Origin: Cyclobacteriaceae bacterium
Lineage (GTDB): Bacteria; Bacteroidota; Bacteroidia; Cytophagales; Cyclobacteriaceae
Direction: 5' to 3'
DNA length: 64,000 bases
Assembly (NCBI GenBank): GCA_019638395.1
Contig: JAHBTX010000004.1
Span: 62,001-126,000, forward strand
Part shown: one piece after another, positions 3,524-62,781 of the stretch
Layout: the number at the start of each line of letters is the position of its first letter
Numbering within the stretch: position 1 is the stretch's first letter
Notes under the pieces: generated by a model
The model's input: only the letters and a program-made list of their open reading frames with translations
The model's database searches: none
What the model was told of the DNA's origin: nothing
Made by a program: the position numbers and the translations under genes

Positions 3524-4123
3524 ATGCTGATTTCTGCTTTTACTCCTGATCTGATTGAAGCTGGTTGCGATGAGGTGGGTCGCGGTTGCCTGGCAGGGCC
3601 GGTAGTAGCAGCAGCCGTCATTTTGCCGAAGCATTATCAACATGAATTGCTCAACGATTCCAAGCAACTCGGCAAGGAAGAGCGGCAACTACTTCAAACC
3701 GATATTACCCGCGATGCCCTGGCATGGGCAATAGCCGAAGTAAGCAATGAAGAGATTGATTCTATTAATATCCTAAATGCTTCGTTTAAAGCCATGCATC
3801 TGGCATTAGATCAACTGCAACTTAGGCCGCAATTTTTACTTATTGATGGCAATCGTTTTAAACCTTACGGGGACATTCCGTTTGAGTGCATTATAAAAGG
3901 CGATGGGGCATATTTGTCGATAGCAGCGGCTTCGGTACTGGCTAAAAATTACCGCGATGAGTTGATGAGTAAACTGGCCGATCAATACCCTGGTTATGGC
4001 TGGCATACCAATGTGGGTTACCCAACCGATGAACACCGCGATGGCATTCGTGCGTTGGGTATTACACCGTATCATCGAAAATCTTTTCAACTGCTGCCTT
4101 CGCAGCTTGAGTTATTTGAGTAA
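3524..4123 (+). CDS. rnhB: ribonuclease HII
   Basis: 199 residues, normal for RNase HII, which nicks the RNA strand of RNA-DNA hybrids and removes single misinserted ribonucleotides. Acidic active-site residues are visible: DEVGRG near the N-terminus with CLAGPVVAAAV after it, then LLIDGNRF and GDGAYLSIAAASVLAK. The C-terminal GYPTDEHRDGI is also typical. The ATG at 3524 is chosen over a TTG three codons earlier because it begins just before the first strand. It is followed after 8 bases by a DUF3667 gene. The upstream gap is AT-rich with iterated TTTGAATT-like words. Confidence 0.95.
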   Translation: MLISAFTPDLIEAGCDEVGRGCLAGPVVAAAVILPKHYQHELLNDSKQLGKEERQLLQTDITRDALAWAIAEVSNEEIDSINILNASFKAMHLALDQLQLRPQFLLIDGNRFKPYGDIPFECIIKGDGAYLSIAAASVLAKNYRDELMSKLADQYPGYGWHTNVGYPTDEHRDGIRALGITPYHRKSFQLLPSQLELFE

Positions 4124-4131
4124 TTTGGTTA

Positions 4132-5019
4132 ATGCCTTTTTCATTCTTTAAAAAGAAGCCCGATACGTTCGATTATGAAGAATCACGGATTTGCCGGTGT
4201 TGCAGCAACATGTTTAAAGGCCGATACTGTAACATTTGTGGTGAAAAGGTAATTGAACCCAGTGAGCGAACGTTTCTTGCTTTTCTTGATAATCTGTTGA
4301 ATGCTTTCACCTTTCTGGATGGAAAGTTTATTAAAAGTTTGAAGTTACTGATAACCCGACCGGGTCAGCTTTCGCGGAATATTGCTGATGGCTTGCGCGT
4401 ACCGTATATGAAAATGGTTTCGCTGTTTTTTGTAGCTAACTTCTTTTATTTCTTGTTTCCAATTTTTGATTCGTTTAACTCATCCTTGTATTCGCAAACG
4501 AATTTGATGGGTGAGCACAGCATTAAAGCCAAAGCCATTGTTGATCGTGAACTAAATAAGCGCCAGATTTCAATGGAAGAGTTTCAGGAAAAATACCAGG
4601 TACAATCCACCAATCTTTCGAAACTTCTGTTGGTAACATTAGTATTAGCTATGACCATCACCTACATGGTGATTAACTATTCGAAGAAAAATTATTTTTT
4701 TGATCATCTGTTGGTTTCATTGGAGTTCTACAGTTTTCATTTGCTGGTGAACATGCTCATGCTGCCGGCTATCACGCTGCTAGTTATAAAATTGGCAAGT
4801 TGGTTAGGCTGGGATTGGTCTGCTGTATTAACCGACAGAGTTTTTTCGATGCCAGTGTACGGATTGATTTTATACTTTTTATTCAGAGCCCAGCGCACAT
4901 TCTATAACCAAAAGTGGTATTGGGCTATACCTAAAGGATTAATGCTGTTTTACCTGATGACAGAAACTGTTCAGTTATATAGAAAGATGTTGTTTTATAT
5001 TACAGTTTGGACTATCTAA
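4132..5019 (+). CDS. DUF3667 membrane protein
   Basis: 295 residues. The N-terminus carries two Cys pairs, CRCCSNMFKGRYCNICG, which look like a small zinc ribbon, followed by ERTFLAFLDNLLNAFTFLDGKF and TRPGQLSRNIADG, the conserved core of DUF3667. At least four hydrophobic segments follow (about residues 100-118, 160-182, 198-225 and 238-255). The family is common in Bacteroidota and has no known function. It is spaced 8 bases after rnhB and 20 before the NRDE gene, so the three may share a transcript. Confidence 0.82.
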   Translation: MPFSFFKKKPDTFDYEESRICRCCSNMFKGRYCNICGEKVIEPSERTFLAFLDNLLNAFTFLDGKFIKSLKLLITRPGQLSRNIADGLRVPYMKMVSLFFVANFFYFLFPIFDSFNSSLYSQTNLMGEHSIKAKAIVDRELNKRQISMEEFQEKYQVQSTNLSKLLLVTLVLAMTITYMVINYSKKNYFFDHLLVSLEFYSFHLLVNMLMLPAITLLVIKLASWLGWDWSAVLTDRVFSMPVYGLILYFLFRAQRTFYNQKWYWAIPKGLMLFYLMTETVQLYRKMLFYITVWTI

Positions 5020-17807: not shown

Positions 17808-18909
17808 ATGACTACCGAACAATTAAAGGATTTGAAAGTCCGTGTTGCCGCCCTCAGGCGGTATCTTTGACTACGATCGTAAAATCGTAGAAATACTAGA
17901 CGAAGAACGCATTACACACCAGGCCGATTTCTGGAACAAACCCAAAGAGGCCGAAGTTATTCTTAAAAATATTCGCACTAAAAAAGTATGGACCGATGCG
18001 TTTGCTGCTGTTAGCAAACAATTGGAAGATCTGGAAGTGTTGAACGAATTCCACGAAGCAGGCGATGCCAGCGAAGAAGAACTGGATGCCGAATACCAAA
18101 AGGCTGCTAAAGCCATTGAAGAGCTGGAGTTCAAGAAAATGCTGAGCAAAGAAGAAGATCAGTTGAGTGCCGTAATGGAAATTAATCCCGGTGCTGGTGG
18201 AACAGAAAGTAATGATTGGGCCGATATGCTCAACCGCATGTACATTATGTGGGGCGAAAAGAGCGGTTACAAAGTTTCGCAGATCGATTACCAGGCGGGT
18301 GAAGTAGCAGGAATAAAATCAGCTACACTGGAGATTGAAGGCCCCTTTGCGTATGGAAAACTAAAATCAGAAATAGGGGTGCATCGGTTGGTACGCATTT
18401 CGCCTTTTGATAGTAACCAACGCAGGCATACTTCATTCGCATCGGTGTTTGTATATCCAAAAGTGGACGACTCTATTGAGATTGAAGTAAACCCTGCAGA
18501 TGTAGAGATTCAAACTTCACGCTCGGGTGGTGCAGGTGGCCAGAATGTAAACAAAGTAGAAACCAAAGTGCAACTCACACACAAACCTTCGGGTATTGTT
18601 ATTGTGTGCCAGGTTGAGCGTTCGCAACATGCCAACCGCGAGCGGGCCATGCAAATGCTTAAATCTAAACTCTACCAGGTGGAAATGGAAAAACGTAACG
18701 CTGCACGCGATAAGGTGGAGGCTGGTAAAATGAAAATTGATTTTGGTTCGCAGATTCGGAACTATGTATTGCATCCTTATAAACTTGTGAAAGATGCCCG
18801 CACCAGTGTAGAGCGACACGATGCACAAAATGTATTGGATGGCGATCTGGACGATTTTATAAAAGCATATCTACTGGAAGATCAGGAGGCTGCTTCGGGT
18901 AAGCAGTGA
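17808..18909 (+). CDS. prfB: peptide chain release factor 2, programmed +1 frameshift
   Basis: RF2 ends translation at UGA and UAA. The first reading frame starts at ATG 17808, runs 20 codons and meets TGA at 17868-17870. The slippery site CTT-TGA-C (17865-17871) with the upstream internal Shine-Dalgarno-like AGGCGG (17856-17861) is the classic RF2 autoregulatory signal; shifting +1 at CTT puts translation in the frame that begins with GAC at 17869 and ends at 18909. The joined product is about 366 residues, the normal length. The stop-recognition motif SPF ([11 protein letters not shown]) and the catalytic GGQ ([10 protein letters not shown]) are present. Low RF2 raises frameshifting and so restores RF2. 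Confidence 0.96.
17856..17871 (+). promoter_or_regulatory. RF2 frameshift signal
   Basis: AGGCGG, then TAT, then CTT TGA C. The purine-rich hexamer sits three bases before the slippery CTT codon, as in the well-studied enterobacterial site AGGGGGTATCTTTGAC, and the in-frame UGA is the codon RF2 itself reads. Confidence 0.93.
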
Positions 18910-18990
18910 ATTGGTAATCGGTGATCAGAATTTCGGTATTTGGTAAATCGGTATTCGGTAATCAGTGGTCGGTAACAGTAATCAGTAAAT
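18910..18990 (+). repeat. left flank of S23 cassette: iterated CGGTAATC-like words
   Basis: The 80 bases between prfB and the four-helix-bundle gene consist of degenerate GGTAATC/GGTGATC/GGTATTC words. GGTAATCGGTGATCAG at 18913-18928 is exactly complementary to 19402-19417 on the far side of the gene, and GGTATTCGGT also recurs in inverted form. Confidence 0.85.
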
Positions 18991-19000
18991 TTTTAGGTTT

Positions 19001-19381
19001 ATGGATTATGTAGATAGTTTTAAAGAGTTAGCGGTTTACAGGGCAGCAAGGCAATTATCCAAAGAGATTTTTATACTAACGAAAAGTTTCCCGAAAGAAG
19101 AAATGTATTCGCTTACCGATCAGGTAAGAAGATCATCACGATCTATTGGGGCACAAGTTGCCGAAGCCTGGGCGAAGAGACGCTACGAAAAACATTTTGT
19201 AAGTAAACTAACCGATGCTGATGGCGAACAACAGGAAACCCAACATTGGATTGAAACTTCATTTGATTGTGGTTATATATCCAAAGAAGTAGCAGATCAA
19301 CTTTTGAGTCAAAGTAGTTCTATCGGAAAGATGATCAATTCCATGATTACCAAATCATCTTCTTTCTGTAAACCTAACTAA
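19001..19381 (+). CDS. four-helix-bundle protein, S23 / 23S rRNA intervening-sequence family
   Basis: 126 residues with the family pattern throughout: FKELAVYRAARQLSKEIF, FPKEEMYSLTDQVRRSSRS, AQVAEAWAKRRYEKHFVSKL, DADGEQQETQHWI and CGYISKE. The fold is a four-helix bundle forming a pentamer, known from a Bacteroides homologue and from Avd of diversity-generating retroelements; its basic face suggests nucleic-acid binding, and the cellular role of stand-alone members is unknown. The gene lies between inverted iterated repeats and has been placed between prfB and the MFS gene. No reverse transcriptase or variable repeat accompanies it here, so it is not part of a DGR in this window. Confidence 0.9.
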   Translation: MDYVDSFKELAVYRAARQLSKEIFILTKSFPKEEMYSLTDQVRRSSRSIGAQVAEAWAKRRYEKHFVSKLTDADGEQQETQHWIETSFDCGYISKEVADQLLSQSSSIGKMINSMITKSSSFCKPN

Positions 19382-19446
19382 TTACCATTAACCGATTTCC
19401 ACTGATCACCGATTACCGATCACCGATTAACCGAATACCTCACCAC
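19382..19446 (+). repeat. right flank of S23 cassette: inverted copy of the iterated words
   Basis: Reading CACCGATTACCGATCACCGATTAACC and similar words, this is the reverse-complement type of the left flank and includes the 16-bp exact inverted match at 19402-19417. It ends one base before the TTG start of the MFS transporter, so it replaces any normal leader for that gene. Confidence 0.85.
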
Positions 19447-19447
19447 T

Positions 19448-20602
19448 TTGCCCAAAACCTACAACACATCCTTCTGGCTTCTCTGCCTCAGCTCGCTGCT
19501 TTTCTTTGCAAGCTTTAACATGATCATTCCGGAATTGCCGGAGTATCTTTCTAAACTGGGTGGTGCTGAATACAAAGGGTTAATCATTTCGCTTTTCACC
19601 ATAACGGCTATGATTTCACGACCGTTTAGTGGAAAGTTAGCGGATAGTATTGGTCGCGTGCCGGTTATGATTTTTGGTGCTGTAGTCTGCTTGATTTGCA
19701 GTTTAATTTATCCACTCATCACCACGTTGATGCCTTTTTTTGTTCTACGTTTTTTTCATGGATTCTCAACGGGCTTTACACCTACTGGCAACACAGCTTA
19801 CCTGGCGGATATAATTCCCGCACAAAAACGAGGCGAGGCGATGGGCTTACTCGGCACAGCCGGAGCCATTGGTATGTCGGGTGGGCCTGCATTGGGGGGC
19901 ATGCTCAGCAACCAGTTTGGCTTGAAAGTAATGTTCTATGCATCGTCCATACTGGCATTGTTATCGATTCTTATTTTAATCCGCACCAAAGAAACACTTC
20001 AAACCAAACAGCGATTTACGTTCACACATTTAAAAGTAAAACGAACCGATTTTTTTGAACCGCTTGTGGTGGCGCCTTGCATTGTAATGGTTTTGGCTGC
20101 ATTTGCTTATGGTGCAGTGTTTACATTAATACCCGATTTTGGTCAGCACGTAGGTGTGCGCAATAAAGGTTTGTTATTTACCTACCTCACGGTAGCTTCG
20201 CTGGTAGTACGGTTGGTAGCAGGCAAAGCATCCGATCGGTACGGACGCCAACCCGTGCTGCTGGTAAGTACATCGGTTATTGTTGTATCCATGTTGGTGA
20301 TTGGTCTTGCTTCCACCAAACTGCAATTAATGATTGGTGTGGTGCTCTATGGATTTGCACAAGGCTCCACTTCGCCCACGCTGTTGGCATGGGCAACCGA
20401 TTTGAGCGACAATCGCTTTAAGGGCCGTGGCATAGCTTCGCTTTATATTTTTATGGAATTGGGCATTGGTTTGGGTGCGTTGATTTCAGGCTGGCTTTAC
20501 GCGAACGACACCAATTTATTCTTTCCGGTGTTTTCTGTTAGTGCAATACTTGCAGCCATTGCTTTTCTTTACCTACTTTCATTGCAACGATTAAAAGCAT
20601 GA
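19448..20602 (+). CDS. MFS transporter, drug or sugar efflux type
   Basis: 384 residues with twelve predicted helices. The motif-A loop after helix 2 is RPFSGKLADSIGRVPVMIFG, and a second copy follows helix 8 (GKASDRYGRQPVLL). GNTAYLADIIPAQKRGEAMG and GPALGGMLSNQFG are typical of the MFS efflux families. Substrate unknown. The start is TTG at 19448: the first ATG is 24 codons later and would cut helix 1, and a stop lies in frame at 19403-19405. The last 4 bases overlap the following lysoplasmalogenase gene (ATGA), so the two are coupled. The S23 cassette lies directly upstream. Confidence 0.9.
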   Translation: MPKTYNTSFWLLCLSSLLFFASFNMIIPELPEYLSKLGGAEYKGLIISLFTITAMISRPFSGKLADSIGRVPVMIFGAVVCLICSLIYPLITTLMPFFVLRFFHGFSTGFTPTGNTAYLADIIPAQKRGEAMGLLGTAGAIGMSGGPALGGMLSNQFGLKVMFYASSILALLSILILIRTKETLQTKQRFTFTHLKVKRTDFFEPLVVAPCIVMVLAAFAYGAVFTLIPDFGQHVGVRNKGLLFTYLTVASLVVRLVAGKASDRYGRQPVLLVSTSVIVVSMLVIGLASTKLQLMIGVVLYGFAQGSTSPTLLAWATDLSDNRFKGRGIASLYIFMELGIGLGALISGWLYANDTNLFFPVFSVSAILAAIAFLYLLSLQRLKA

Positions 20603-47899: not shown

Positions 47900-47930
47900 T
47901 TTTTTAAGTGTCCTTCATAGGAGAGACTAT

Positions 47931-47990
47931 AAATTGCGTCAGTTTGGTGACGGAATTTATATAAATTGCGTCAGTTTAGTGACGCAATTT
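47931..47990. promoter_or_regulatory. twin palindromes before the DUF4143 ATPase gene
   Basis: AAATTGCGTCA-GTTTGG-TGACGGAATTT (47931-47958, one mismatch) and AAATTGCGTCA-GTTTAG-TGACGCAATTT (47963-47990, perfect 11-bp arms). Their starts are 32 bases apart, about three helical turns, and the second ends 4 bases before the -7 box, as expected for a cooperative operator. Confidence 0.75.
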
Positions 47991-62704: not shown

Positions 62705-62714
62705 TATTATTTAA

Positions 62715-62763
62715 TTCAAGATTCAAAATCAGGATCAACTAATCCGGAATCTTAAATCTTGAA
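62715..62763. repeat. imperfect inverted repeat of AATCTTGAA words
   Basis: TTCAAGATT (62715-62723) faces AATCTTGAA (62755-62763), with further partial pairing inside (AGGAT/ATCC). It lies between convergent genes and may act as a weak terminator. Similar AATCTTGAAT words occur in other gaps of the window. Confidence 0.55.
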
Positions 62764-62781
62764 TCTTTGAATGGCTCTACT

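Follow-up and report, generated by a model that had tools for sequence, protein, structure and literature searches.

An S23 gene between inverted heptanucleotide arrays in the prfB-MFS spacer of a Cyclobacteriaceae bacterium: a candidate small transposase-less element

INTRODUCTION

Part of the intervening sequences (IVSs) of bacterial 23S rRNA carry an open reading frame (ORF) for an S23 protein, and the IVSs are cut out by RNase III. As the part of PMC4990558 drawn on here describes them, S23-coding IVSs have inverted-repeat ends that pair into a long stem, occur sporadically and at preferred sites, and are suspected of mobility; their function and origin are called unclear. Heptanucleotide repeats have been described in other settings. 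The P6b stem of the Nostoc trnL intron is built of degenerate 7-nt repeats with the motifs TDNGATT and NNTGAGT (PMC4476775, in part), and TAACTGA heptamer repeats are found in Beggiatoaceae, Cyanobacteria, and some Bacteroidetes (PMC4679880, in part). Avd, an accessory protein of diversity-generating retroelements, is related to S23 in fold and in sequence family (PMC10053308, in part).

We analyzed a 64,000-nt stretch of DNA from a Cyclobacteriaceae bacterium (contig JAHBTX010000004.1, positions 62,001 to 126,000), referred to here as the window. In it, the spacer separating prfB from an MFS transporter gene is taken up by an S23 gene flanked on each side by an array of degenerate 7-nt words, the two arrays being mutually inverted. 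In REP/RAYT systems, inverted palindromic repeats flank a gene, many further palindromes without a gene are dispersed, and the RAYT protein is a Y1-type transposase. The window unit resembles them in its bracketed gene and in the dispersed gene-less palindromes, but Pfam finds no transposase domain in the ORF between its arms, the only matches being 23S_rRNA_IVP and bAvd. It also differs from Avd, as the window S23 protein scored 35.0 bits against NF033474 (cut-off, 80) and 36.4 bits against bAvd (cut-off, 40).

The unit is like a 23S rRNA IVS in having an S23 ORF and inverted terminal repeats that form a stem. It is unlike one in lying between two protein genes rather than in an rRNA gene, in having stems of iterated 7-nt words, and in occurring in several copies per genome, with gene-less copies elsewhere (PMC4990558, in part). 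Because it lies outside an rRNA gene, we do not file it as an IVS, though it may work like one. With the Nostoc P6b stem it shares a stem of complementary degenerate 7-nt words whose type changes between related strains; unlike S23 units, however, the P6b repeats sit inside a group I intron, and the part of that paper drawn on here does not mention an S23 gene (PMC4476775). Like TAACTGA repeats, the S23 units have 7-nt words, are largely intergenic and patchy, and are suspected of horizontal spread, whereas TAACTGA repeats consist chiefly of a single fixed word in direct array, and "S23" is absent from the text of that report as drawn on here (PMC4679880). Among the literature matches listed, with preprints and most subscription papers outside the scope, we recognized no publication joining S23 to heptamer inverted repeats.

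RESULTS

An S23 gene between inverted heptamer arrays

The features of the locus are collected in Table 1; gene calls are longest ORFs, made without a trained gene finder. An earlier note on this DNA had placed an S23 gene between prfB and an MFS gene, and profile matches bear this out for all three. The window S23 protein belongs to its family by both models, with 109.7 bits against PF05635 (curated cut-off, 33.8) and 103.5 bits against TIGR02436 (cut-off, 24). The 16-mer and its complement lie exactly where the note had them, and the 10-mer GGTATTCGGT at 18950-18959 does recur in inverted form, at 19430-19439. The S23 gene between inverted heptamer arrays is confirmed as an observation, and it is general. 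Two details changed: the words, given as 7 to 8 bases long, do form arrays, but their unit is 7 nt, and the cassette does not run to one base before the TTG start of the MFS gene, since the right array is recognizable to 19439, 8 bases before 19448.

Table 1. Features of the prfB-MFS locus, in window coordinates
Feature	Position	Strand	Evidence
prfB (release factor 2), frame after TGA; upstream neighbor	17842..18909	+	Pfam PCRF 4.2e-52, RF-1 6e-39
Left array, degenerate 7-nt words GGTAATC, GGTGATC, GGTATTC, AGTAATC	about 18910..18990	+	Read in sequence; direct repeats and inverted partners; periods 7 and 15
Exact 16-mer GGTAATCGGTGATCAG, left copy	18913..18928	+	Repeat search
S23 four-helix-bundle gene, 126 aa	19001..19381	+	PF05635 E 1e-31; TIGR02436 E 6.6e-30; dN/dS 0.09 vs relative G012
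Right array, left-array words inverted	about 19382..19439	-	Read in sequence; repeat and period search
Exact 16-mer GGTAATCGGTGATCAG, inverted copy	19402..19417	-	Repeat search
MFS transporter gene, TTG start; downstream neighbor	19448..20602	+	Pfam MFS_1 9.1e-55; orthologues in relatives

We scored the pairing of the two arms across each gene. The window S23 gene scored 29, the 62 other called window genes averaged 10.7 and peaked at 19, and none of 200 dinucleotide shuffles of the locus reached its score. With up to 2 mismatches allowed, the 16-mer matched the genome at 17 places and a reversed control at 1; of the 17, 4 lay at the window locus and 13 elsewhere, and by their coordinates none of the 13 was beside any of the genome's five S23 genes. 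S23 evolves under purifying selection, with a median dN/dS of 0.086 over the 21 pairs for which the ratio was computable (dS was saturated in the remaining listed pairs) and values below 0.5 in 20 of the 21.

Upstream, prfB begins with an ATG at 17808, meets an in-frame TGA at 17868 within AGGCGGTATCTTTGAC, and then continues in the +1 frame (17808-17876). We take this, from the motif, to be the programmed RF2 frameshift site.

Heptamer arms are common around S23 genes

At least one S23 match was present in 49 of 58 relatives and in 232 of 296 genomes drawn from Bacteroidota; the relative and phylum loci were chosen by top HMM score. Arms passed a score of 16, a threshold of our own choice, at 107 of the 141 S23 loci with usable flanks and fell below it at 34 (4 of 145 loci were dropped beforehand for short flanks). 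The set contains two probable duplicates, L017/L140 and L022/L127. At the 107 arm-bearing loci, periodicity was strongest at lag 7 (z = 52.8) and lag 14 (z = 29.8), followed by lag 16 (z = 3.3), and the best lag was 7 or 14 in 89; the words themselves vary from locus to locus. G exceeded C in the left arm at 95 of the 107, but an inverted repeat of this kind has its G-rich part at the 5' side whichever strand is read, so the bias gives no direction.

The arms are predominantly inverted. Across 35 loci from the window's own genome and its relatives, the mean arm score was 17.3 for inverted pairing, 12.0 for direct pairing, 10.7 when the partner arm came from another locus, and 10.0 for shuffled sequence. 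The inverted score exceeded every one of 200 shuffles at 15 loci and every mispair at 14, and at 6 loci it was no higher than the direct score. We also scored 75 named loci from many taxa (the best 80 of at least 580 confirmed, less 5 with short flanks). Here the means were 21.3 inverted, 15.5 direct, 12.4 mispaired, and 11.1 for pseudo-gene controls (n = 1194), and the 99th percentile of the controls was exceeded by 44 of the 75 inverted and 13 of the 75 direct scores and by 5.4% of mispairs. The arm score was also passed by 13 of the 15 loci with usable flanks that carry non-Bacteroidota labels, although the organism labels of MAGs may be wrong.

The phage collection gave no match. Plasmids gave 28 matching records, from which five cyanobacterial loci were inspected (arm scores 34, 28, 15, 13, and 11). 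Two had clear heptamer arms, one had short arms, and two had none; at the locus scoring 13, short heptamer-like stretches were visible, not arranged as inverted arms. On a Nostoc plasmid, an S23 gene with heptamer arms separates two ribonucleotide reductase genes and lies on the strand opposite to both (L355, 595-963); on a Pseudanabaena plasmid, another such gene separates cas6 from cas4 (L357, 601-960).

The units lie between co-oriented genes and can fold as RNA

At the 132 loci where both neighbors were called, both lay on the S23 strand in 118, they were mixed in 11, and both were opposite in 3; 13 further loci without a called neighbor stand outside this count. Ordinary window genes whose neighbors share a strand were oriented with them in 22 cases and against them in 9 (difference from S23, p = 3e-5). 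Among elements from the genus, both neighbors were on the S23 strand in 84 of 88, at recurrent, housekeeping-looking junctions (with the exception of prfB, MFS, and S23, junction gene names such as thlA, acdh, hcd, sufB, sufC, murD, ftsW, and metH are our reading of translated ends). For 51 genus elements, the median distance of the arms from the neighboring genes was -4 nt at the upstream stop codon and -6 nt at the downstream start codon. Because the arms fill the spacer and positions are blurred, an insertion end cannot be fixed. Neither a moving enzyme nor a target duplication was found in the unit or at the compared junctions, and there was no clean empty sister site among these junctions to define a duplication or the exact ends.

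An improbable alternative is that the unit acts in RNA, as a 23S rRNA IVS does: the arms would base-pair once the operon is transcribed, and cleavage of the panhandle by RNase III would leave the cistrons separated or differently stable, the unit being kept as a regulator. The shared orientation fits this idea, and so does folding. The window cassette RNA forms the panhandle that the earlier note had envisaged (z = -5.57; 0 of 100 shuffles). In 60 elements sampled from the 84 co-oriented genus elements, at least 10 pairs formed between the element's own flanks in 55, compared with 33 when another element's downstream flank was substituted (means, 29.0 and 15.4). However, selection on the RNA would give an excess of G:U-compatible arm mismatches on the sense strand, and none was found (181 versus 220; per element, 35 versus 42). 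This test thus gave a negative answer on selection for an RNA stem, and we prefer the idea that the unit is kept by its own spread; the panhandle stands as a fold. A scan for promoters and terminators was also at chance level (7 against 6.0 expected and 3 against 2.8 expected), Rfam gave zero matches at E up to 1 in the region 18700-19700, and on Nostoc edaphicum and Calothrix plasmids the S23 gene is opposite to both neighbors.

Arm words follow the S23 clade, and gene-less copies accompany it

We compared arm words between nonhomologous sites. The mean word cosine was 0.029 to 0.033 at S23 identities below 50% and 0.047 at 50 to 60%, rising to 0.168 at 60 to 75% (76 pairs) and 0.387 above 75% (4 pairs), with a permutation p of 0.0005 that is uncorrected for kinship. 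The neighbors of the leading word-sharing pairs were checked and are different genes. Since similar S23 proteins carry similar arm words at unrelated sites, gene and arms appear to travel together. GGTAATC-type words accompany the window's S23 clade at prfB-MFS, in the window's own genome (G000), in G012, and with a truncated gene in G008, and at other junctions with an intact gene in G024 and broken genes in G025 and G020; the exception is a clade member in G022 (61% identity) that has other words. Within a junction, an element's own arms matched better than a relative's in 92 of 97 pairs at 45 to 60% S23 identity, 77 of 103 at 60 to 75%, 25 of 49 at 75 to 90%, and 3 of 8 above that, a preference that either co-change of the arms or replacement of the whole unit would produce.

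The words also occur away from S23 genes, which the earlier note had named as a finding against it. Taken literally this counts against the note, yet such copies are commoner in genomes with the matching S23 clade: with S23 flanks removed, at least three gene-less word matches were present in all 7 genomes that have the clade but in only 5 of the 28 that lack it (Fisher p = 1e-4, rank test p = 6e-4, both uncorrected for kinship). A clear exception is G006, where 104 word matches were counted but the search found no member of the clade; G026, G013, G029, and G017 also have at least three matches without a clade member. At the neighboring junctions hcd-thlA and thlA-acdh, word sharing was 24.7 within and 19.7 between genomes (13 species, p = 0.002); the effect is carried mainly by G000, G008, and G031, and a genome's own pairing ranked first in only 2 of 13.

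We also noted other arrays. In the window itself, AT-rich 7-nt words (TTCAAGATTCAAAATC ... AATCTTGAATCTTTGAA) form an inverted array without a gene in the convergent spacer at 62705-62781, and at 47928-47990 a 32-nt palindromic unit, TATAAATTGCGTCAGTTTAGTGACGCAATTTA, occurs twice in tandem. At locus L053, the reading frame of a minus-strand ORF (3655-4338) stays open through a GGTAATC-type array (3926-3974), so a protein can be read from arrays of this kind.

It is distinctly unlikely, in our estimate, that the heptamer hairpins are host repeats grown in spacers by slippage and hairpin copying, with S23 genes merely lying among them. Gene-less arrays are indeed common, similar 7-nt words form the Nostoc trnL intron stems, and direct 7-nt arrays exist in other bacteria. 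Against this, none of the 62 other window genes is bracketed as the S23 gene is, and the words follow S23 identity across unrelated sites.

Turnover of the unit at junctions, and a prfB-MFS copy that looks inherited

Of 16 MFS loci examined, the window's own included, 14 had prfB adjacent. Two of these 14 junctions carry an intact S23 gene (the window and G012), one a truncated gene (G008), and 11 none; at some S23-less junctions prfB and MFS overlap by ATGA. With 11 of 14 junctions lacking S23, the objection that the prfB-S23-MFS arrangement might be conserved with no empty sites does not apply. At thlA-acdh, 30 genomes divided into 15 with an S23-sized insert, 8 with a gene-less hairpin (judged by eye), and 7 with a plain spacer. 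At sufB-sufC, again in 30 genomes, 7 had a full-sized insert, 3 a shortened one, and 18 a short spacer, with heptamer-like stretches in a few of the 18; 2 were unreadable. Decay is visible in S23 remnants kept at sufB-sufC in G031 and G017, as in the truncated gene of G008. The sufB-sufC spacer of G026 (L270) has inverted CGCTAAGACGCAAAG-type words, another word family, and no S23 gene.

In a tree of 87 S23 proteins from 12 junctions, the junction label changed 13 times (minimum, 11; shuffled, 55.8), with three changes each at two junctions and two at one. In the genus there is thus a nearly one-to-one match of clade and junction, and with clades almost tied to one junction, moves to new sites are rare. 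Among 13 species pairs with unsaturated flanks, S23 was discordant with its flanks in 7 (more diverged in 5, less diverged in 2) and did not differ from them in 6. At murD-ftsW (G024 and G009), pS was 0.15 for the flanks and 0.92 for S23, and at metH, in the same two genomes, it was 0.53 and 0.14. At prfB-MFS, one of the 6, pS between the window and G012 was 0.49 for S23 and 0.50 for the flanks; because S23 and its flanks are equally diverged, this copy looks vertically inherited, having decayed or gone missing in most relatives. The earlier suggestion of a compact mobile or domesticated unit without a transposase is largely supported, in that gene and arms are coupled and S23-less junctions exist, with the window copy itself looking inherited.

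That S23 is instead an ordinary resident operon gene of vertical descent, with repeats growing beside it, would suit the 6 pairs that do not differ, prfB-MFS among them, and the near one-to-one match of clade and site, but for the class as a whole this is already hard to hold and we give it very little weight, given the discordant murD-ftsW and metH pairs, the presence of a single clade, words included, at junctions that are unrelated to each other, and the many empty junctions.

DISCUSSION

We favor the reading, with a probability of roughly 0.6, that an S23 gene and its two inverted 7-nt arrays form one small transposase-less element, of a class found around most sampled S23 genes. The sequences show that arms and gene keep together across unrelated sites and that the unit usually occupies the spacer between two co-oriented operon genes. 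At a given junction, some species have the unit, others have a different S23 lineage in its place, and in still others it has decayed or is missing. The gene-less arrays probably derive from S23 cassettes, as a few junctions directly show decay in which the arms outlast the gene. The prfB-MFS copy looks inherited and is under purifying selection.

How such a unit might spread can be sketched from the protein family and the arms. Two solved S23 relatives, 2rld and 2gsc, have five chains each, and a title cited in PMC10053308, a source used here in part, describes Xcc0516 as having five four-helix bundles. As an oligomer with kinship to Avd, the S23 protein may recognize the hairpin formed by its own words, and that hairpin, as RNA or as single-stranded DNA, may be what host enzymes act on in copying or recombination. 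More tentatively, each S23 clade could be a dedicated partner that binds its own 7-nt hairpin and helps copy it into operon spacers, yielding both cassettes and gene-less swarms. S23 units would then make up a separate class of transposase-less mobile elements, with S23 IVSs and trnL intron stems as special cases; we regard this wider scheme as possible but doubtful.

The small element that we favor would tie S23 to a cognate, recognizable hairpin, which would make a direct binding and mobility assay feasible. S23 units are also a candidate origin for some of the iterated 7-nt repeats that spacers contain. With S23 in 232 of 296 sampled Bacteroidota genomes, these results point to a very small element that has repeatedly entered housekeeping operons.
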